From a virus, in IMG/VR virus record IMGVR_UViG_3300030106_004490, positions 1 through 20,487 of that record: a stretch of 20,487 nucleotides of DNA; one strand, 5' to 3'. The translations under genes were made by a program, and so were the position numbers. Numbering within the stretch: the first letter of the stretch is position 1; every line of letters begins with the position of its first letter. Shown piece by piece: positions 205-19,744 of the stretch. The notes under the pieces are model-generated. The model saw only the letters and a program-made list of their open reading frames with translations, ran no database searches and was not told where the DNA came from.

Positions 205-390
205 TCACGTCGCGTTTCTTTCAGCTTCGATCTTCGCTTGAATCTCACCGCGCCAAACTGGGATGTCTCGCGGAGCGTCCACCAGCACGTAGCAGCCGCC
301 GCCGTTCTGTTTGAAGTCGACGAACTTCAAGCGAATCTCATCGCCAATCACGAGCTCTTCGTTTTCGCCGCGTCGCAGTTTCAAAGTCAT
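205..390 (-). CDS. csrA: CsrA-like post-transcriptional RNA-binding regulator
   Basis: The protein has 61 residues, the length of E. coli CsrA, and follows the family pattern along its whole length: LRRGENEELVIGDEI (residues 5-19) matches the start of CsrA, and VDAPRDIPVWRGEIQAKIEAE (37-57) matches its NAPKEVSVHREEI helix region, keeping the RNA-contacting arginine (R47, E. coli R44). Family members are small dimers that bind GGA motifs in mRNA leaders and change translation or stability. I chose the ATG at 390 because AAAGGA (402-397) sits six bases upstream. A second in-frame ATG at 405-403 has a poor ribosome site. Two GGA motifs (408-406 and 399-397, the latter inside the Shine-Dalgarno) would suit autoregulation. 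It is the last gene before a strong terminator. The middle segment (KQNGGGCYV) differs from host CsrAs, which suggests a diverged phage form. Confidence 0.85.
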   Translation of the reverse strand: MTLKLRRGENEELVIGDEIRLKFVDFKQNGGGCYVLVDAPRDIPVWRGEIQAKIEAERNAT

Positions 391-482
391 TTCGAATCCT
401 TTCATTCCAGAGTAAAGAGCGACGGCGGGCGCCTGCTGAACATGGGCCTGAACTGCCTGCGGAGTTCCCGCCGCCGCGTGAA

Positions 483-812
483 TCAATCTGCTTCCTTTGC
501 TGGCCACCACGTGACCGCTAACGTCCCCGCAACCAAACACGGTCGCCTTTCGCCTCGCTCGATCTGTACCGTCTTCGCCAACTCCGGCAGTCGCCGCGCT
601 GGCTGATGCCGGTTCATCTCAAGGCCTTTTGCGATCTCAGCGGAGGTCGCGCCGGGGTGCTCTTGAACGAATCGCAGCACCCGCGATCTCTGATCCTCCG
701 CCGTGCCGTTCGCTTCGACGCGTTCCGCGGCCATCGCGGACGTGACCGGATCTGACGTGCGAGCCGTGGCCGTCGCGGTCGGTTGGATATCAAACAATGT
801 GGGCTGATTCAT
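483..812 (-). CDS. Small phage winged-helix protein
   Basis: This 109-aa protein has a disordered N-terminus (NQPTLFDIQPTATATARTSDP) followed by a helix-turn-helix-like segment, roughly residues 46-80 (RVLRFVQEHPGATSAEIAKG then RHQPARRLPEL). It ends in a Trp-rich beta-like tail (VAGTLAVTWWPAKEAD). The arrangement resembles small phage DNA-binding proteins that carry an HPGATSAEIA-type winged helix; the role is not known. I use the ATG at 812, with AAAGG upstream, rather than the GTG at 881 that would extend the frame through an unlikely Cys/Lys-rich stretch. It lies 68 nt after the previous gene and 92 nt before the CsrA-like gene. Confidence 0.65.
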   Translation of the reverse strand: MNQPTLFDIQPTATATARTSDPVTSAMAAERVEANGTAEDQRSRVLRFVQEHPGATSAEIAKGLEMNRHQPARRLPELAKTVQIERGERRPCLVAGTLAVTWWPAKEAD

Positions 813-1334: not shown

Positions 1335-2066
1335 TCACTCTCCTGTGAGGGTTGGGTGAAAATTGAGGATGCGTTCCATCTGCTCACGCCATGCCTCATC
1401 CGCCTGCGCGACCCTCTCGCACGTCGACGGCCGGCGAAGGTGATTGATCTTCGCCTCATCAAGAAAGCGGGCAGCCGCCCTGACTGCCGCCACGTGATGT
1501 CTCAACTTGAGCTCGAAGGTGTCCTGCTCGTCATTGGGGAACAGGATCTGATTGACCTTTTGATTCCGCTTGTTGACCGCCTCTTTGATGACGCCGGCTT
1601 CGACAGCGGATTCAGCCGCCCACTCCGCTTTTGCTAAGCGGGTGGCAGCGGCTGGTGTGTGTCCTTGCTGTGTGTAGTGATCAAGGTATGGCTGGAAGTC
1701 CTCAGCATCATCACCAGTGACAGTGACGACTGATTGATTGCCCCGGCCGTCATCGTTGAGCTTGACAGATACAGCAGGAGCAAACTCTTTAAGGACACGC
1801 GGCACTTCATTTCGCTGCACGTTGTTCGTCTGGCCAGCGAGGGGAGGTGTCAACTTGTCACCCCCCCCTGTTGCCGCTGCAATGCCTGCCAGATCCAAGT
1901 GGTTTTGCACCCACTTGATGTGGTGGTCGAGTCTTTCAGCAACGTCACCAATGGAATGACCAACACAGTACCTCGCCACTGCCTGCGCGATCTCCATTCG
2001 GTGTCGCTTCTGCAGTCCACCCCAATCCTTGTCGATCTCTTCCCATGTCATGGCGTGTGTGCTCAT
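1335..2066 (-). CDS. Phage protein with ParB/KorB-like helix-turn-helix
   Basis: This 243-aa protein has an N-terminal segment (residues about 15-62) ending in SIGDVAERLDHHIKWVQNHL, which resembles the HTH of ParB/KorB-type proteins (IA-RLG-S---V-N-LRL). No ParB nuclease/CTPase box is visible, so it is not a full ParB. The middle contains a beta-like stretch (SVKLNDDGRGNQSVVTVTG) and the rest is helical and charged. It is the first gene of the left operon. The ATG at 2066 has AGGAAGG about 11 nt upstream, and an in-frame ATG at 2051 is the alternative. The gene contains an eight-base G run (1861-1868 on the plus strand read as C). Likely a DNA-binding regulator or partition/replication accessory; function is inferred only from the HTH. 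Confidence 0.65.
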   Translation of the reverse strand: MSTHAMTWEEIDKDWGGLQKRHRMEIAQAVARYCVGHSIGDVAERLDHHIKWVQNHLDLAGIAAATGGGDKLTPPLAGQTNNVQRNEVPRVLKEFAPAVSVKLNDDGRGNQSVVTVTGDDAEDFQPYLDHYTQQGHTPAAATRLAKAEWAAESAVEAGVIKEAVNKRNQKVNQILFPNDEQDTFELKLRHHVAAVRAAARFLDEAKINHLRRPSTCERVAQADEAWREQMERILNFHPTLTGE

Positions 2067-2152: not shown

Positions 2153-2190
2153 AAAAAAAGCCCGCCGACCTTTTAGGCCTGACGGGCTTT
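2153..2190 (-). terminator. Strong intrinsic terminator upstream of the left operon
   Basis: On the minus strand AAAGCCCGTC then (A bulge) GGCC, loop TAAAA, GGTC, GGCGGGCTTT form a stem of about 14 bp followed by a run of Ts (2159-2153). It lies between the promoter-like sequence at 2244-2272 and the first left-operon gene at 2066. It can end the repressor transcript, and it would also attenuate or stop transcripts from that promoter. Confidence 0.8.
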
Positions 2191-2238
2191 CGCGACTTCG
2201 TGCCGCTGTTTAGTTGGTCGCTCCGTCAGTCGTGACGG
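2153..2238 (-). ncRNA. Candidate structured small RNA or attenuated leader
   Basis: A transcript from the promoter at 2272-2244 would start near 2238 and stop at the terminator T-tract, giving about 85 nt with no reading frame of note. It would open with a hairpin CCGTCA-CGAC-TGACGG (2238-2223), continue with a possible GCGAC/GTCGC pairing, and finish with the terminator stem. This layout is typical of phage-borne small regulatory RNAs, but it could equally be a leader with an attenuator in front of the 2066 gene. No homologous RNA is recognised; the call rests on structure and placement only. Confidence 0.35.
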
Positions 2239-2243
2239 CGGCC

Positions 2244-2272
2244 ACTCTATTCCTCGTGGAATATTCTTGCAA
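2244..2272 (-). promoter_or_regulatory. Putative promoter reading into the left operon, with an operator
   Basis: On the minus strand TTGCAA (2272-2267) is followed after exactly 17 bases by TAGAGT (2249-2244), each matching the sigma70 hexamers at four of six positions. The spacer and -10 are overlaid by the perfect dyad O1 (2248-2263). The layout copies that of the repressor promoter at 2562-2590, same -35 and same GAATATTCC spacer motif, which supports it as a repressor-controlled promoter. Confidence 0.5.
2248..2263. promoter_or_regulatory. Operator-like dyad O1
   Basis: TATTCC-TCGT-GGAATA is a perfect 6-4-6 inverted repeat covering the spacer and -10 of the leftward promoter. It is the best-conserved of four related 16-bp sites around the repressor gene (13 of 16 bases shared with O3). 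Probable binding site of the adjacent Xre-type protein. Confidence 0.6.
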
Positions 2273-2299
2273 CAGCAGTGGCGGGACTTTTTCGAACTT

Positions 2300-2315
2300 T
2301 ATTCCACTCGGACTA
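2300..2315. promoter_or_regulatory. Operator-like dyad O2
   Basis: TATTCC-ACTC-GGACTA matches the O1/O3 consensus at 14 of 16 positions, with half-sites TATTCC and TAGTCC. It overlaps the stop codon of the repressor gene and lies 36 nt upstream of O1, so it may be an auxiliary site for cooperative binding at the leftward promoter. Confidence 0.5.
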
Positions 2316-2552
2316 AGCCGGAACTGGCGGATCTCCAATCAGATCATCTGTCGTGACTTGGAGTGCGTCTGCCAAATTTTTCAGGTCGACCGCAGAACAA
2401 ACGGAACGCTGGTTGAGCAGTTTGCTGATAAAAGACTGTGATATATTGGCTTTCTCCGCGATTGCGGTTTGCGTCAATCCGCAATCGAGCATCAACCGCT
2501 GGAGATTTTCCGCGACGTTCAACTTCGCTCGGTTTTCGGTGATCATCTTCAT
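2313..2552 (-). CDS. Xre/Cro-type helix-turn-helix repressor
   Basis: This 79-aa protein is one HTH_3 domain: LTQTAIAEKANISQSFISKLL (residues 26-46) is a textbook helix-turn-helix, followed by DLKNLADALQVTTDDLI, the closing helices typical of Xre-family regulators. There is no C-terminal self-cleavage (LexA/CI-like) domain, so it is either a short phage repressor or a Cro-like protein. It reads divergently from the integrase, with the putative attP between them, as in many temperate-phage immunity regions. No Shine-Dalgarno is seen before the ATG at 2552. The predicted start of transcription is about 3 nt upstream, suggesting a leaderless mRNA. A second ATG at 2546 is possible. Four related dyads (O1-O4) flank it and are its likely targets. 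Confidence 0.85.
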   Translation of the reverse strand: MKMITENRAKLNVAENLQRLMLDCGLTQTAIAEKANISQSFISKLLNQRSVCSAVDLKNLADALQVTTDDLIGDPPVPA

Positions 2553-2561
2553 CGACCCGCT

Positions 2562-2590
2562 ATTATTACACGCGGAATATTGCTTTGCAA
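2562..2590 (-). promoter_or_regulatory. Putative repressor promoter
   Basis: On the minus strand TTGCAA (2590-2585), a 17-base spacer and AATAAT (2567-2562) form a sigma70-like promoter (four and five of six matches). Operator O3 covers the -10 and spacer, and a TATTGC-TTT-GCAATA dyad (2578-2592) covers the -35. Transcription should begin near 2555, three bases before the repressor ATG, and autoregulation is the natural reading. Confidence 0.6.
2564..2579. promoter_or_regulatory. Operator-like dyad O3
   Basis: TATTAC-ACGC-GGAATA is 13/16 identical to O1 and overlaps the -10 and spacer of the repressor promoter in nearly the same register as O1 in the leftward promoter. Likely the autoregulatory site. 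Confidence 0.6.
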
Positions 2591-2602
2591 TACCCCTGGA
2601 TG

Positions 2603-2618
2603 TATTCTGCGTCGCATA
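2603..2618. promoter_or_regulatory. Weak operator-like site O4 beside attP
   Basis: TATTCT-GCGT-CGCATA matches the O1-O3 consensus at 12 of 16 positions. It lies 24 nt from O3 and five bases from the end of the tRNA fragment, so it could be a cooperative repressor site or a recombination-factor site. Weakest of the four. Confidence 0.3.
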
Positions 2619-2622
2619 AAAG

Positions 2623-2669
2623 TCGGGACGACAAGATTTGAACTTGCGACCTCTGCACCCCCAGTGCAG
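2623..2669 (-). other. attP: tRNA-Pro(GGG) 3' half, probable phage attachment site core
   Basis: On the minus strand, in order: anticodon stem CTGCA (2669-2665), seven-base loop CTGGGGG with anticodon GGG, stem TGCAG, variable AGGTC, T-arm GCAAG-TTCAAAT-CTTGT, acceptor strand CGTCCCG and discriminator A (2623). CCA is not encoded. The 5' part is not a tRNA: the D-arm is wrong, and although CGGG occurs at 2697-2694, at about tRNA length, the rest of the acceptor strand does not pair. A 3' tRNA segment next to a tyrosine-recombinase gene is the classic attachment site used by phages that integrate into tRNA genes. The predicted target is the host tRNA-Pro(GGG) gene. Confidence 0.75.
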
Positions 2670-2770
2670 CGCCTTCGCTGCCGGGGTTTGTTACCCGCTG
2701 AAACGGAACGTTACAGAATTCGGCGGGCCAGTCTTTTTGCATGATGCATGCTCTCCCCTCAGGGGTGATC

Positions 2771-3640
2771 ATGTCGCTGACATTACAGGCAAACAGCTAT
2801 TGCACCGCGCACGGTCTGCGGCGGCGGAACCCAATTTACACAGCGAATCGATTTCGCCGGTTGTGCGGAAAAATCAGCGCAGAACAGCTCACAGTCGAAC
2901 ACGTCGAGCAGTTCCGGGCCGCCTGCAAAGCTGCGGGCCTGCGACCGGCCACGATTGAAAACGGCGTCACCGATCTGCGGTGCATCGTCAAACACGCCAC
3001 AGGCCGCGATTTGCCGCCCGGCCGGCGTCTGCGACTCCCACGCCCCGCCCCGAAACCCGTGCCGCTCTCGGATCTCTCAGCGGTCTACAACGCGGCCCCC
3101 GCATGGGTGCAGAAGTATCTGGCCCTGCAGTTTTGGACCGCCGCCCGCGTGTCGGATTGCCTGAGCCTTCTCACCGCCAGCCCGGGCAATGAACTGCGGT
3201 GGACGGCCAGCAAAACCGGAGCCGCTCACGTCTGCCCTGTGCCGATCTGGCTGAAACGGCATCTGGCCATGCCTGCCGCGTTGCCTCGCGGTCTGTCATC
3301 CGGCTGGATGATCAAACAGCTTCGCCGCGCTCTTACAACCGCCTGCGAAGCGGCTGGCGTCGCCCGCTTCACCCCGCAGCAGGTCCGGCAGCGTGGCCTG
3401 ACCGAATGGAGCCAGTCCAACGCGATGGCCGCTCAAGTGATCCACGGATCCGGCCTGGGCGTGATGGCGCACTATGTCGACCCGCTGGCCGTTCTTCAGT
3501 CCGCGGCCGGATCTGTGCGGCTGCCGCTCGCGTTCTGCACCGCAGAAGAACGGGCCGCGGATGATCTCCCGGACATCATCGCCCGCCTTGATCCGGACGC
3601 CCGGTCGCTGCTGATGGAAACGGCCCGCCGGTTAGCGTGA
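2771..3640 (+). CDS. int: Tyrosine recombinase (phage integrase), divergent
   Basis: This 289-aa protein has an N-terminal helical core-binding domain (about residues 1-95) and a C-terminal catalytic domain. Likely active-site residues are R126 (TAARVSDCLSLL), K148 (ASKTG), R206 (QQVRQRG, where the usual HxxR histidine is Q203), H225 (IHGSGLG) and nucleophile Y235 (AHYVDP), with spacings normal for the family. It catalyses site-specific recombination between phage and host att sites. I chose the ATG at 2771 because AGGGG (2761-2765) lies five bases upstream; the ATG at 2741 would add ten residues. A CCCC-TCA-GGGG dyad overlaps the ribosome site. It is the only plus-strand gene, sits 102 nt from the tRNA-Pro fragment and converges with the late operon. 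Confidence 0.85.
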   Translation: MSLTLQANSYCTAHGLRRRNPIYTANRFRRLCGKISAEQLTVEHVEQFRAACKAAGLRPATIENGVTDLRCIVKHATGRDLPPGRRLRLPRPAPKPVPLSDLSAVYNAAPAWVQKYLALQFWTAARVSDCLSLLTASPGNELRWTASKTGAAHVCPVPIWLKRHLAMPAALPRGLSSGWMIKQLRRALTTACEAAGVARFTPQQVRQRGLTEWSQSNAMAAQVIHGSGLGVMAHYVDPLAVLQSAAGSVRLPLAFCTAEERAADDLPDIIARLDPDARSLLMETARRLA

Positions 3641-3740: not shown

Positions 3741-4002
3741 TCTGCCACCTGAGGCCGAGCTTCCATAAGCAGGCGGCGATCGCGTTCGATTCGTCACAAA
3801 TGTACTGTTCCGACTGTCCCCAGTCGGCCGCATGCCGCAGTTCATGGATGAGGATGCGAAGCTTTTCTTCGGATCGCAAATCGTCTCGGATGCGGATCTC
3901 TTTGCGGGGCGTATCTGGCGAATCACATTCGCCAAGCTGTGAGGCGTCTTCAAATTTGCAGAAACGTATACGCCAGCGCTTACCGTGGATCGTGACATTC
4001 AT
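3730..4002 (-). CDS. Mini-zincin metallopeptidase-like protein
   Basis: This 90-aa protein contains LIHELRHAADW (residues 51-61), a clean HExxH zinc-binding motif (H53, E54, H57), followed by a candidate third ligand, E71, in DESNAIAACLW. This is the arrangement of small gluzincin-like or SprT/IrrE-like proteins, but the whole protein is little more than the active-site core with a beta-hairpin before it (KEIRIRDDLRSEEKL). The ATG at 4002 has GAGGTG upstream and lies one base after the stop of the phosphoesterase gene. Substrate unknown. Possible roles are processing of a phage or host protein, or a lysis or exclusion function. Confidence 0.7.
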   Translation of the reverse strand: MNVTIHGKRWRIRFCKFEDASQLGECDSPDTPRKEIRIRDDLRSEEKLRILIHELRHAADWGQSEQYICDESNAIAACLWKLGLRWQNEE

Positions 4003-4003
4003 A

Positions 4004-4906
4004 TCACACCTCAGCCTCGCGGACTTCGAATTTAATCGTGGCGGTTGAATCGCGGCGGCCTTTGCGCTTCTCGCGGCCACGGTAGAACCTCAAAAAATAC
4101 CCTCCAGTGGGTTTCGGTGCATGACCACTTTCGACCGCCCAGCCACCCAGCCCGGTTTGATACTCATCTTTGTACGTTGGGATTTTGAGCGTCAGCAACG
4201 AACGTCGCTCCACCGTGCCCATCGAGTTGAGACGCAACCGAACGTCACGCGTCGCCCACTGATCGTGTGTGTGGCCCGAGACCATGATATCGGCATTCTC
4301 AACGTACGAACGCTCACGAGCCGCCTGGGGCAGGCCTTTTGTCACGCCACCGCCGCCCGTTCCGTGAGTGTGCCAGAGTCTGATTGATTGCGTCTGCGTC
4401 TTGCCGATTTTGAACTGGAACAAAACCCAGCCGGTATAGCCCGTCACAGGAAACGCTGCGCCCGTGCGATCACGAAGCCGGCTGGCCAGCCGCTCGATCA
4501 CGTTCGTTTCGTGTCGCTTGAGAATGCTGGCTTCGTGATTGCCCATCCCCTGCATCACCCACAGGTGAGCGTAAGGTTCGTACAGATCCGCACACCAGTT
4601 GATAACCGAGTCCAGATAGTTATCAACGTTATGCTCCGGCCTCACTTTTGACTTGGATTTGCGAGGATCCCAGGAACCCTGCATCAAACACATTAAATCT
4701 CCCGTGTCGATCACGCCGGCTTTGCGCTTCTTCGCTTCTTCCAGATGCTTTATCTGAAGTTCTAAGTTGCTCTGCGGATTGTCGCTATGTGCATCACTCC
4801 GCAGCAGGAAAAAGCGTTCGCCGTCTGGCGGGATGTTTCCGCAGTCGCAGATCACGACGTTCGGCGACGTTCCCGCGCGCACCTTGAACGGTAGGCTGTC
4901 GGCCAT
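4004..4906 (-). CDS. Calcineurin-like metallophosphoesterase
   Basis: This 300-aa protein shows the metallophosphoesterase motifs in order: D38-x-H40 (LRSDAHSDN), D70 (DTGD), GNHE with N123 and H124 (GMGNHE), HTHG (179-182) and GHTHD (211-215). The fold binds two metal ions and hydrolyses phosphomono- or diesters. Phage members are known as nucleotidases, phosphatases or nucleases, and the substrate cannot be read from sequence. A perfect Shine-Dalgarno (AAGGAGGTG) precedes the ATG at 4906, suggesting strong expression. It sits late in the tail or lysis part of the operon, unusual for a DNA-metabolism enzyme. Confidence 0.85.
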   Translation of the reverse strand: MADSLPFKVRAGTSPNVVICDCGNIPPDGERFFLLRSDAHSDNPQSNLELQIKHLEEAKKRKAGVIDTGDLMCLMQGSWDPRKSKSKVRPEHNVDNYLDSVINWCADLYEPYAHLWVMQGMGNHEASILKRHETNVIERLASRLRDRTGAAFPVTGYTGWVLFQFKIGKTQTQSIRLWHTHGTGGGGVTKGLPQAARERSYVENADIMVSGHTHDQWATRDVRLRLNSMGTVERRSLLTLKIPTYKDEYQTGLGGWAVESGHAPKPTGGYFLRFYRGREKRKGRRDSTATIKFEVREAEV

Positions 4907-4924
4907 TGGGCACCTCCTTGCGTG

Positions 4925-5140
4925 TCACTTGGAACTCAGAACTTCCAGTTGGCCCTCAAGTTTGCCAACGCGCACGCTGAGCACTTGCAGCTCATCCTGA
5001 GCTTTGCCGTGCTCCGCGTGACACAGATCAAGCTTGTCCTCGCAGCGCTTTGCCGACGCCTGCACCTGCCGCCAAAGGTAAATGATCGCCGTTGTTCCAG
5101 CGGAAATTGTGGCCCCGGTTGTGATCAGGTTTTCGTCCAT
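4925..5140 (-). CDS. Small membrane-anchored coiled-coil protein (spanin- or holin-like)
   Basis: This 71-aa protein has an N-terminal hydrophobic helix (ITTGATISAGTTAIIYLW, about residues 5-23) followed by a charged coiled coil (KRCEDKLDLCHAEHGKAQDE...VRVGKLEGQLEVL). A short N-terminal anchor with a coiled-coil tail resembles small phage lysis or accessory membrane proteins such as Rz-type inner-membrane spanins or class III holin-like proteins. This is a topology argument, not homology. I use the ATG at 5140 (CAGGA about 10 nt upstream); the longer frame to 5329 is a shadow of the neighbouring gene. Confidence 0.6.
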   Translation of the reverse strand: MDENLITTGATISAGTTAIIYLWRQVQASAKRCEDKLDLCHAEHGKAQDELQVLSVRVGKLEGQLEVLSSK

Positions 5141-8505: not shown

Positions 8506-9353
8506 TACGTAATTCCCGGCAAAAATGAAAACGACGTTTCGCCGTAGATTTTATAGGATCCGAACACAGCAGTTGTCGGGCCGGGGTTTGTTACCACCCC
8601 GCCGGAACCGTTCAACAGCGCCGGGTTCGTTACCGGCGTCGTATCTTTGTTGCGAATTATTCTGAAATCACCACTTGAGTCTCTCGCACGAAAGCCACAA
8701 TCGAGCGGCTGGTACAGCCACGTGTGCGGATTCACTTCGATGCTGTAGGACGCCTCGACGTATGCGATGGTGCCCTGCAACTTCGCCTCAGAAATCGACA
8801 CGCCCGCCAGTTTTCCACAGCGGGCCGGAATGGACACGCCATCAATCGTTATTGCGGTTGAGTTGATATAGTCCATCGCATTGAGCAGCGTTCCGTAGCT
8901 CGTCAGATTCGCCGTGATGTTTGCCGTGAATCGTGTCTCCGATCGCGTTGGCACCTGATCGAAGAAGTCGCCAGCACTGTTCACGATCGCAACGGGCGAG
9001 CTTTCAACCGTCACCCAGATCGGCACCTCTACCGTTGAGCTGCTCCACGAAACACGCGGCCCTGCTAAAGTTGGCGTCGCGTTTGTTTCGCGTTCGCTGG
9101 TATATTTTGCCGTCACTGTCCAGCCGTTGGGCGGCTCGTCCGCGTCAACGTTCAGTGCATAGCAGTAGGCGGATGAATCTTCCGGCCATGTGCCTCCGAG
9201 CACTGGCAGCCCTGTCGCGGAACCGACAGCGTACGGGCCTTCTGTGCTCGGGCTTGTCGTCGTCACTCTCCACGCGTATTCGTACGTGCGAATGCCACGA
9301 TCGTTCGAGGCTTTGTGGCTGCCCGGAATCACTCCTACCGCTGTGACTGTCAT
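8505..9353 (-). CDS. Tail-tip structural protein, distal-tail-like by position
   Basis: This 282-aa protein is rich in Ser, Thr and beta-prone segments (STVEVPIWVTVES, TRFTANITANLTSYG, GTIAYVEASYSIEVNPHTW), with no signal peptide. It is joined to the tape-measure gene and to the next gene by TAATG overlaps. In siphophages the gene after the tape measure usually encodes the distal tail or baseplate hub component, and this is the best positional guess. I do not recognise a specific family signature. Confidence 0.6.
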   Translation of the reverse strand: MTVTAVGVIPGSHKASNDRGIRTYEYAWRVTTTSPSTEGPYAVGSATGLPVLGGTWPEDSSAYCYALNVDADEPPNGWTVTAKYTSERETNATPTLAGPRVSWSSSTVEVPIWVTVESSPVAIVNSAGDFFDQVPTRSETRFTANITANLTSYGTLLNAMDYINSTAITIDGVSIPARCGKLAGVSISEAKLQGTIAYVEASYSIEVNPHTWLYQPLDCGFRARDSSGDFRIIRNKDTTPVTNPALLNGSGGVVTNPGPTTAVFGSYKIYGETSFSFLPGIT

Positions 9354-17274: not shown

Positions 17275-17988
17275 TCACGCGATTCTGAGCGTCAAGTCCA
17301 TTTTCGCTTTGGCGAGTGCCAGCCGTTCTTCAGGGCAGTATTCCGGCTGTTGTTTTGGCTGAATTGCTGCGGCTTGTGCCGCCAGTTCTTCGAGTTCTTC
17401 GAGCGTTTCTACTGCCACCGCGAACGGCTCAGCCGTAGAGCAGGCCGCGATCGTTTTGTTTGGAATGATTGAATCCGCGAACCCGGCCCGCTTCGCTTCC
17501 GCTGCGCTGAACCATGTCTCCGCCTGCATCCAGTCCAGAATTTGCGATTTTTCACTGCCGGATCGCGCCGCGTAGATGTCGGCCATCGAGTCTTTGATGC
17601 CGTCCAGAATTGACGCCATCTTTTCCGTTTCAGCCGCTGCTTCTCGCAGATCGTCCGCGTCGCCCCACGCCATCGCAGACGGCCCCATCGGATTGTGAAT
17701 CATATACTTCGCGTTCTGTGCCATCACGACTTCGTCAGACGCACAGGCAATTATCGTGGCGATTGAACCGACAACACCGTACGCATGAACGCGAACCGGC
17801 GCCGGGTGCGCCGCCAGCATCGAATACATTGTCAGCCCGTCACGAACGACGCCGCCCGGACTGGAGATGTACACGTCAAGCGGTTCATCCGTTGAGGCTG
17901 CCGCGTACTGTTCGGCGAACGTGTTTGCTGTGATCCCGTCGCCGCCTTCGGTTTCGCCGATGGCTCCATACAGTTGAATCTCACTCAT
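17275..17988 (-). CDS. Prohead protease, ClpP-like serine protease
   Basis: This 237-aa protein has the ClpP/S14 signatures: ISSPGGVVRDGLTMYSML (residues 41-58), catalytic S75 in GVVGSIATIIACASDEV, and catalytic H98 in YMIHNPMG. The acidic third residue is unclear in DWMQAETWFSAAEAKRAGFA, typical of phage members. It cleaves the scaffold part of portal and capsid proteins during head maturation. I chose the ATG at 17988, overlapping the portal stop by eight bases, rather than the frame extension to 18117, which is a shadow of the portal C-terminus. The last 50 residues are Ala/Glu-rich. Confidence 0.9.
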   Translation of the reverse strand: MSEIQLYGAIGETEGGDGITANTFAEQYAAASTDEPLDVYISSPGGVVRDGLTMYSMLAAHPAPVRVHAYGVVGSIATIIACASDEVVMAQNAKYMIHNPMGPSAMAWGDADDLREAAAETEKMASILDGIKDSMADIYAARSGSEKSQILDWMQAETWFSAAEAKRAGFADSIIPNKTIAACSTAEPFAVAVETLEELEELAAQAAAIQPKQQPEYCPEERLALAKAKMDLTLRIA

Positions 17989-19744
17989 TGTTTGTTTGCT
18001 CCATGATCGAGTCAGTGATAATTTCGCCTCGCTCGTCTGTCCACGTGGCAACGCACTCTGCGACAGCCCCAGCCAGACTTGTTTGCGAACACGAGCCAGC
18101 AACATCAAGCAACGCAATCTTACTGGCTTGTGCGTGTGTCTTTAGTGCCGTTTCAGATCCGCTGGCTGGAATCGTCGCGTTGCTCACCCACTGCGGATAA
18201 AATGAATCGAGCCACGCCAGAAAGTTCTGCTCCGTCTTCGCAGCTTTGACGACACGATCTTTCTCAATTTGCAAGCTGCGCGAAATGCTGCTGTTTACCA
18301 TCGCCCGCAAGCTAGCAGCCGCTGGCGAACTGTCTTCTGTCGGCTCCGGTGCTTCGAGCCGTAGCGGCTGAGCGGTGTCTGGAACGAACTCATCCTCCAG
18401 ATTGAATCCCGCCTGTGTCACAAGCTGGCGAGCTTCTTCAGCCGTCACAACTTTGCCGACGCCCAGATAAACCTTCTGAATCAGACTCGCAATCTCAACC
18501 TCAGACAACGCTGCCGCGGTTGTTGGTGCGTCGCCTTGCGCAGGACGCTCTGTGATCTCCAGCAGGTTCGCCGGCCGGTACAGTGCGTCACCGTTCTCAA
18601 CCGGCGCCATGTTCTCCGCGTTCCGCACTTCGTTGATCGTCATGTTCCCCGACATCTGCATTTTCGTATAGAAGTTCGCGCGATCATTCGCACTCATTCG
18701 CAGCAGTGCCCGGCGATTAAACTCGACGAAGTGCGAGTCTGTCCGCTGCTCCGTATCACTCAGCAGCTTCGTGTTTGCTTCGCTTTCAATTTCGCAAAGC
18801 CAGTGATCAAGACAGTCCGTTAAGAAAGTAGTGTTCTCTGACTCGAGACTGTTGTGGCTGGTGCGTGTCGGATCACCCAGCTTGTGCGGTGGACAGCCGG
18901 TGATGTTCGCGATTGTGCGGACTTCATATTCGCGCGTCTCAAGGAACTGCGACTGTGCAGGGTTTACAGTCAAAGGTGTGAACCGAGTCCCGTCTTGGAG
19001 AAGGGCGACCTTGTGAGAATTCGATAATCCGCTGACCATGCTGCTCCAGGCATCCATCGTGGCTCTGATCTTCGCTTCCGAGAAGTGCCCCGGCACTTGG
19101 AGCACGCCGGAGACGTTCGCGCCTTGCCCAAAGAACCGCGCCCCGAACCGGGAAGCCGCCACGCCAACCGACAACGCTTCCGCCATCAGCGTGACTATGT
19201 CATAACCCTTCATTCCGTCATTGCTGAGCCCACGACAATGAAAGACATCCCTTGAGGGTATCCGCACCTGCTCGCCGCGAATCTCTGTCACATACCACAG
19301 CTCCGCGTCCTGCATCGCAGGAAACGTGACATCAGGATCAAGCAGCACCAGCTGTGTGGCGTCGCCGCGGTTGTTCCGTTCGATCGCCGCGTATCCATTG
19401 CCACGGAGCAGGGCGTGCCCCACGAGCGTCTGTTTCAATGTGAACGCCTTCACATACTTGGAACTGCGTTTCTTCAGCAGTCGCGTGGCCGGGTGCAGCG
19501 TGTCTCGTTCTTTCGCTCCGTCCGGCAGCCGGCGAAACACATCCACCGGCAGCTTTGCCACGCTGCCACTAATCAACGACACAGCACGCCAGAGCGGCGG
19601 GTGCCCCATCGCGATCGTGGGCGAGATCTTCACGCCTGCTTCAGTGCCCATGCCGCCGAAGTAACGATCCCACGCGGCCGGATCTTGTAACGATACGGCC
19701 GGATTTTCGAGCGGTGCGTTGTTCTCGATTTCGTCTGTCTGCAT
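17981..19744 (-). CDS. Portal protein, HK97 family, with long C-terminal extension
   Basis: This 587-aa protein has HK97 portal features: GHPPLWRAVSLISGSVAKLP (residues about 48-67), VGHALLRGNGYAAIERNNRG, VFHCRGLSNDGMKGYDIVTL and ANITGCPPHKLGDPTRTSHN followed by LESENTTFLTD. Portals form the dodecameric ring for DNA packaging and exit. Typical HK97 portals have about 400-450 residues; here roughly 130-150 more follow, Ala/Glu/Ser-rich and helical (EVEIASLIQKVYLGVGKVVT, SISRSLQIEKDRVVKAAKTE). The start at 19744 has AAGGA eight bases upstream and follows the terminase stop by ten bases. Confidence 0.9.
   Translation of the reverse strand: MQTDEIENNAPLENPAVSLQDPAAWDRYFGGMGTEAGVKISPTIAMGHPPLWRAVSLISGSVAKLPVDVFRRLPDGAKERDTLHPATRLLKKRSSKYVKAFTLKQTLVGHALLRGNGYAAIERNNRGDATQLVLLDPDVTFPAMQDAELWYVTEIRGEQVRIPSRDVFHCRGLSNDGMKGYDIVTLMAEALSVGVAASRFGARFFGQGANVSGVLQVPGHFSEAKIRATMDAWSSMVSGLSNSHKVALLQDGTRFTPLTVNPAQSQFLETREYEVRTIANITGCPPHKLGDPTRTSHNSLESENTTFLTDCLDHWLCEIESEANTKLLSDTEQRTDSHFVEFNRRALLRMSANDRANFYTKMQMSGNMTINEVRNAENMAPVENGDALYRPANLLEITERPAQGDAPTTAAALSEVEIASLIQKVYLGVGKVVTAEEARQLVTQAGFNLEDEFVPDTAQPLRLEAPEPTEDSSPAAASLRAMVNSSISRSLQIEKDRVVKAAKTEQNFLAWLDSFYPQWVSNATIPASGSETALKTHAQASKIALLDVAGSCSQTSLAGAVAECVATWTDERGEIITDSIMEQTNNE

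Follow-up and report, generated by a model that had tools for sequence, protein, structure and literature searches.

A predicted lysogeny switch with tandem repressor and early promoters in a putative temperate phage of Fuerstiella-like planctomycetes

Three closely related dyads surround a small helix-turn-helix (HTH) repressor gene, rep, in IMG/VR record IMGVR_UViG_3300030106_004490, the whole of which (20,487 bases, hereafter the window) was analyzed in this study. The region is very probably the immunity locus of a tailed, temperate phage whose hosts are marine planctomycetes resembling Fuerstiella. In the best explanation of the data, which we hold with the same high confidence, the Rep protein would exert negative autoregulation and also repress a left operon arranged in tandem with rep, with no evident Cro.

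Gene order and attachment site of the phage

The leftward genes of the window start with the terminase gene at the right end and continue with genes for portal, ClpP-like protease, capsid, tail tube, and tape measure proteins. Beyond these structural genes lie the integrase gene int (2741–3640, plus strand), the repressor gene rep (2313–2552, minus strand), and small leftward genes from gene1 (1335–2066, minus strand) onward. The product of int is a tyrosine-type integrase of 299 aa (PHROG integrase, E = 2e-8) with relatives in planctomycetes, and the gene points away from rep. The portal gene (17981–19744, minus strand) has relatives with 83–91% identity in three short viral contigs (L044–L046), and rep was undetected in these portal-bearing relatives.

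The attP core (2623–2672, minus strand) consists of 50 nt that are identical to the 3′ end of a host tRNA-Pro(GGG) gene. This identity was found in four planctomycete genomes, three of which are labelled Fuerstiella. The location of attP in a tRNA gene and the presence of an integrase indicate a temperate lifestyle, and because the contig crosses attP and no host DNA flanks the core, it represents the excised or circular form of the phage. Integration places rep immediately after the host tRNA gene, and int comes to lie at the opposite end of the prophage. When the window was searched at the DNA level against phages, the tRNA-Pro sequence was the only match. Two viral contigs share the same attP core, one being a complete tRNA gene and the other a different phage with another integrase, and rep was undetected in both. 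In the latter (L063, IMGVR_UViG_3300043493_000052), the same tRNA-Pro 3′ end is found at 3899–3942, followed by an integrase gene at 3963–5036 (minus strand) whose product has no detectable similarity to that of int in the window.

Rep is a single-domain XRE-type protein

Rep comprises 79 aa and scored above the curated Pfam cut-offs for HTH_31 (42.5 bits, cut-off 27), HTH_3 (37.8 bits, cut-off 23), and HTH_26 (37.5 bits, cut-off 22), which places it among the XRE/Cro-C1-type HTH proteins. Consistent with this assignment, its PHROG match was to transcriptional regulators. The protein contains the HTH only and, since there is no second domain, lacks a self-cleavage domain. A single-sequence AlphaFold model of low confidence (pLDDT 56), which informs on the fold class only, showed a five-helix HTH. 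The Foldseek neighbors of this low-confidence model were XRE regulators, many of them stand-alone proteins such as C.AhdI, C.Esp1396I, and SinR (C.AhdI and C.Esp1396I were among the best neighbors, with E about 0.01). Controllers of the C.AhdI and C.Esp1396I type autoregulate via palindromic operators, and they resemble Rep in size and, as far as the low-confidence model indicates, in fold class. In contrast to these proteins, rep has no adjoining restriction-modification genes in the window and is proposed to control a phage operon. Two more specific assignments were rejected. The score of Rep for the RstR family (NF041951) was 32.5 bits versus a curated cut-off of 80, and a role as a restriction-modification C protein was discarded because the neighbors of rep are int and gene1 and none of the flanking genes tested matched a restriction-modification family.

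No close relative of Rep was found in viral contigs, and the best match among the 170 genomes searched from the Fuerstiella family reached 36% identity. Host genomes bearing the attP tRNA contained no Rep relative, and a tblastn search of the integrase relatives for rep gave no match. Among contigs with relatives of the portal or phosphoesterase, one very weak Rep match was obtained (12.9 bits, 27%).

Three operator-like dyads around rep

The dyads share the pattern TATTCC-N4-GGAATA. O1 (2248–2263) matches it perfectly (0/12 mismatches), whereas O2 (2300–2315), which overlaps the rep stop codon, and O3 (2564–2579) each deviate at 1/12 positions. Six places in the window match the pattern with ≤3/12 mismatches, and O1, O2, and O3 are the best three. 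A search of the full 20,487-base record, which the initial annotation had named as a check, returned these three as the sole matches with ≤2 mismatches, all contained in 332 bp. The earlier statement that two of the sites are identical at 13/16 positions proved correct for both O1/O3 (14/16 with one site reversed) and O2/O3, and the identity of O1 and O2 is 12/16 (13/16 reversed). Furthermore, O1 has a 20-nt repeat in common with O2 and an 18-nt repeat in common with O3.

The significance of this cluster was assessed by a motif-free test, in which copies of any perfect 6 + 6 dyad were counted in the segment 2240–2639 with ≤1 mismatch allowed and compared with dinucleotide shuffles (n = 2000). 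The segment contains three copies, and none of the 2000 shuffles reached three; the shuffles yielded zero, one, or two copies, with two in just four cases. Shuffled whole windows contained on average 0.01 sites with ≤1 mismatch. That chance or base composition in A+T-rich promoter DNA produced the cluster is an extremely remote prospect: promoter regions are indeed A+T-rich and dyad-prone, but the shuffles give no three-member family and neither does any other 400-base tile of the window. We thus treat O1, O2, and O3 as real, non-random sites.

The initial annotation had listed a fourth site, O4 (2603–2618), located between attP and P_rep. While its description of four sites with a shared pattern was exact in position for O1–O3, O4 is a weak dyad with 3/12 mismatches (9/12 match), and a match of this quality occurred in 2.4% of the shuffles of the surrounding 161-base segment (p about 0.024). 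O4 is therefore marginal and may be due to chance; of the four sites claimed, three are good and one is doubtful.

Proximity to attP could suggest that the dyads are arm sites of an integrase or excisionase, or parts of a transcription terminator, as O4 is 5 bp away from the attP core and O3 lies within 60 bp of it. We consider this very unlikely, because O1 and O2 are 300–400 bp off and beyond rep, the best two sites are centered in promoter spacers, and no U tract accompanies the dyads, the real terminator of the region being a different hairpin.

Two dyads occupy equivalent positions in predicted promoters

Two leftward promoters with the same TTGCAA −35 box and 17-bp spacing were predicted, with consensus scores that should be read in light of how little is known of planctomycete promoter rules. 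P_rep (2562–2590, minus strand; TTGCAA-17-AATAAT) matches the consensus at 9/12 positions and has a TG ahead of the −10 box. P_L (2244–2272, minus strand; TTGCAA-17-TAGAGT) is located downstream of rep and matches at 8/12 positions, its −10 box being a weak match. O1 lies inside P_L and O3 inside P_rep. As proposed in the initial annotation, they occupy nearly the same place in these promoters, which run exactly from 2272 to 2244 (P_L) and from 2590 to 2562 (P_rep); O1 begins 3 bp and O3 5 bp from the respective −35 box, and both dyads extend into the −10 box. A repressor bound at either site, between the −35 and −10 boxes, would be expected to block RNA polymerase.

The −10 box of P_rep ends at 2562 and the rep start codon (ATG) is at 2552. 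Because P_rep sits so near the start codon, the geometry suggests that the rep mRNA is probably leaderless, with a predicted start at or adjoining the ATG. The repressor mRNA transcribed from PRM of phage lambda is leaderless. For phage PY54, a leaderless cI mRNA has been demonstrated experimentally (PMC4488713).

A terminator in the leader of the left operon

An intrinsic terminator, consisting of a strong hairpin and a U7 tract, was identified between P_L and gene1 (2153–2190, minus strand), about 50 bp into the predicted P_L transcript; this hairpin was not listed by a standard terminator scan. The P_L leader (2238–2148, minus strand) folds with −41.6 kcal/mol (z = −4.9). A shortened leader folds differently, as CUGACGG (2229–2223) pairs with CCGUCAG of the terminator 5′ arm. 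With a 5′ hairpin, an alternative pairing, and a strong terminator, the leader (2153–2238, minus strand) has the predicted form of an attenuator, which is suggestive only.

The left operon is opened by gene1, which encodes a protein of 243 aa without a match in family-profile searches. A search of 2.9 million viral contigs retrieved one homologue, which is 57% identical and located in contig L004, and no homologue was found in the sampled planctomycete genomes or in phages. A low-confidence model of the gene1 product contains N-terminal HTH-like helices. Another gene of the left operon (205–540, minus strand) encodes an RNA-binding regulator of the CsrA type (Pfam CsrA, 41.8 bits, cut-off 27). 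L004 also has a CsrA-like gene (9002–9217, plus strand) near its gene1 homologue, and in phages of the type represented by the window and L004, early genes may be controlled post-transcriptionally.

The proposed switch and its relation to other systems

In the proposed switch, the 79-aa XRE protein would bind the 16-bp dyads as a dimer. Occupancy of O3, located in P_rep between the −35 and −10 boxes, would limit Rep synthesis, while binding at O1, at the same place in P_L, together with O2 would shut off the leftward early operon starting with gene1. The center of O2 is 52 bp upstream of the center of O1, and since this distance corresponds to about five helical turns, the two sites are likely on the same face of the DNA. 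Repressor gene and early operon are arranged in tandem and oriented in the same direction, without a divergent cro, and no Cro-like second regulator was found. Transcripts from both P_rep and P_L should mostly end at the terminator in the P_L leader, and full early expression would consequently also need readthrough or antitermination.

The nearest annotated Rep homologue found is the XRE-like repressor SUAG_00031 of Sulfitobacter phage pCB2047-A (HQ332142; 45% identity over 51 aa). This phage has its own predicted dyad, TGTCGA-N5-TCGACA, in one copy before the repressor gene (position 2367) and in two copies between this gene and the next co-directional gene (positions 2939 and 2973), the last of which begins 4 bp after a TTGACA box, inside the promoter spacer. 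These three dyads are the sole places with ≤1 mismatch in the 41-kb genome, and among 1000 shuffles two reached even two members and none three. The arrangement of one dyad before and two after the repressor gene parallels that of O3 versus O2 and O1 in the window. The two phages thus share a homologous HTH and the same dyad layout, with the caveat that the pCB2047-A operators are unannotated and were predicted here. In contrast to the window, pCB2047-A has another dyad motif, a longer repressor (about 107 aa), a spacing of 34 bp rather than 52 bp between the downstream dyads, and a gene annotated as antirepressor divergent from the repressor gene. The initial annotation had interpreted the region as a phage genetic switch combining autoregulation with control of the left operon. 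This prediction gains support from the location of the HTH gene between the sites, the position of two sites over promoter cores, and the layout in pCB2047-A.

Could the dyads instead be the operators of another regulator, of the host or encoded by gene1, with Rep acting elsewhere? The HTH-like helices modeled for the gene1 product and the conservation of gene1 beside a dyad in L004 would fit this explanation, but the L004 dyad is a wholly different one, as expected if the dyad tracks the changed HTH gene. In L004, the predicted motif TTTACA-N4-TGTAAA occurs before an excisionase-like small HTH gene and before gene1, 306 bp apart. Because L004 keeps gene1 but has a different dyad, the dyad appears to go with the neighboring HTH gene rather than with gene1. 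Moreover, pCB2047-A, in which gene1 has no homologue, shows the same layout. Host genomes hold essentially no such sites; six planctomycete genomes (about 43.6 Mb) contain one exact match, which argues against a host regulon. Control by another regulator is therefore improbable, and regulation by Rep remains the preferred explanation.

For a negative control, a degenerate O1/O3 pattern was used to find matching sites in viral contigs, and the 23 stretches obtained were inspected. In none of them does a second copy occur within 1 kb or a similar HTH gene adjoin the site; in one, a similar HTH gene is located at a distance of about 2 kb. Lacking a second copy or an adjoining similar repressor, these matches most likely arose by chance. 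At the weak HTH homologues in L037 and L043, the search for a repeated dyad of the expected type was negative.

Like lambda-type CI/Cro switches, including those of the telomere phages N15, phiKO2, and PY54 (PMC4488713), the window has a few related palindromic operators in the repressor and early promoters, with O3 in P_rep and O1 in P_L. Unlike in these systems, the operators flank rep on both sides instead of forming one intergenic block, the position divergent from rep is taken by int and not by a cro with operators between the two genes, and Rep has no counterpart of the C-terminal dimerization and self-cleavage domain of CI. The cluster A mycobacteriophage L5 also has repressor sites at the repressor gene and the early leftward promoter, but its 20–30 asymmetric stoperator sites are distributed genome-wide (PMC6550527), whereas the sites in the window are three, symmetric, and confined to 332 bp.

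In a lysogen, the distance from the end of the tRNA-Pro(GGG) gene to the rep start codon is 71 bp, and no terminator was seen between the two. Transcription of the host tRNA could conceivably continue into rep and supply additional repressor that does not depend on P_rep. O4 would then act as a roadblock at the junction, and the terminator in the P_L leader would isolate the early operon from the extra flow of transcripts, but we regard this scenario as unlikely.

Implications for planctomycete phages

Compared with the initial annotation, our analysis gives less weight to O4 and adds the tandem layout without Cro, the leader terminator, the host, and the location of attP a short distance upstream of P_rep. 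The literature searched contained no description of a lysogeny switch from a planctomycete phage, and Fuerstiella phages appear essentially undescribed there. Mechanistically, this is a familiar kind of system, most simply an ordinary self-limiting lysogeny switch; it is the host group that makes it worth recording. The region offers a predicted repressor/operator pair that is amenable to testing in a poorly studied host group, attP names both the host group and the integration site, and the compact tandem layout can be sought in other phages.
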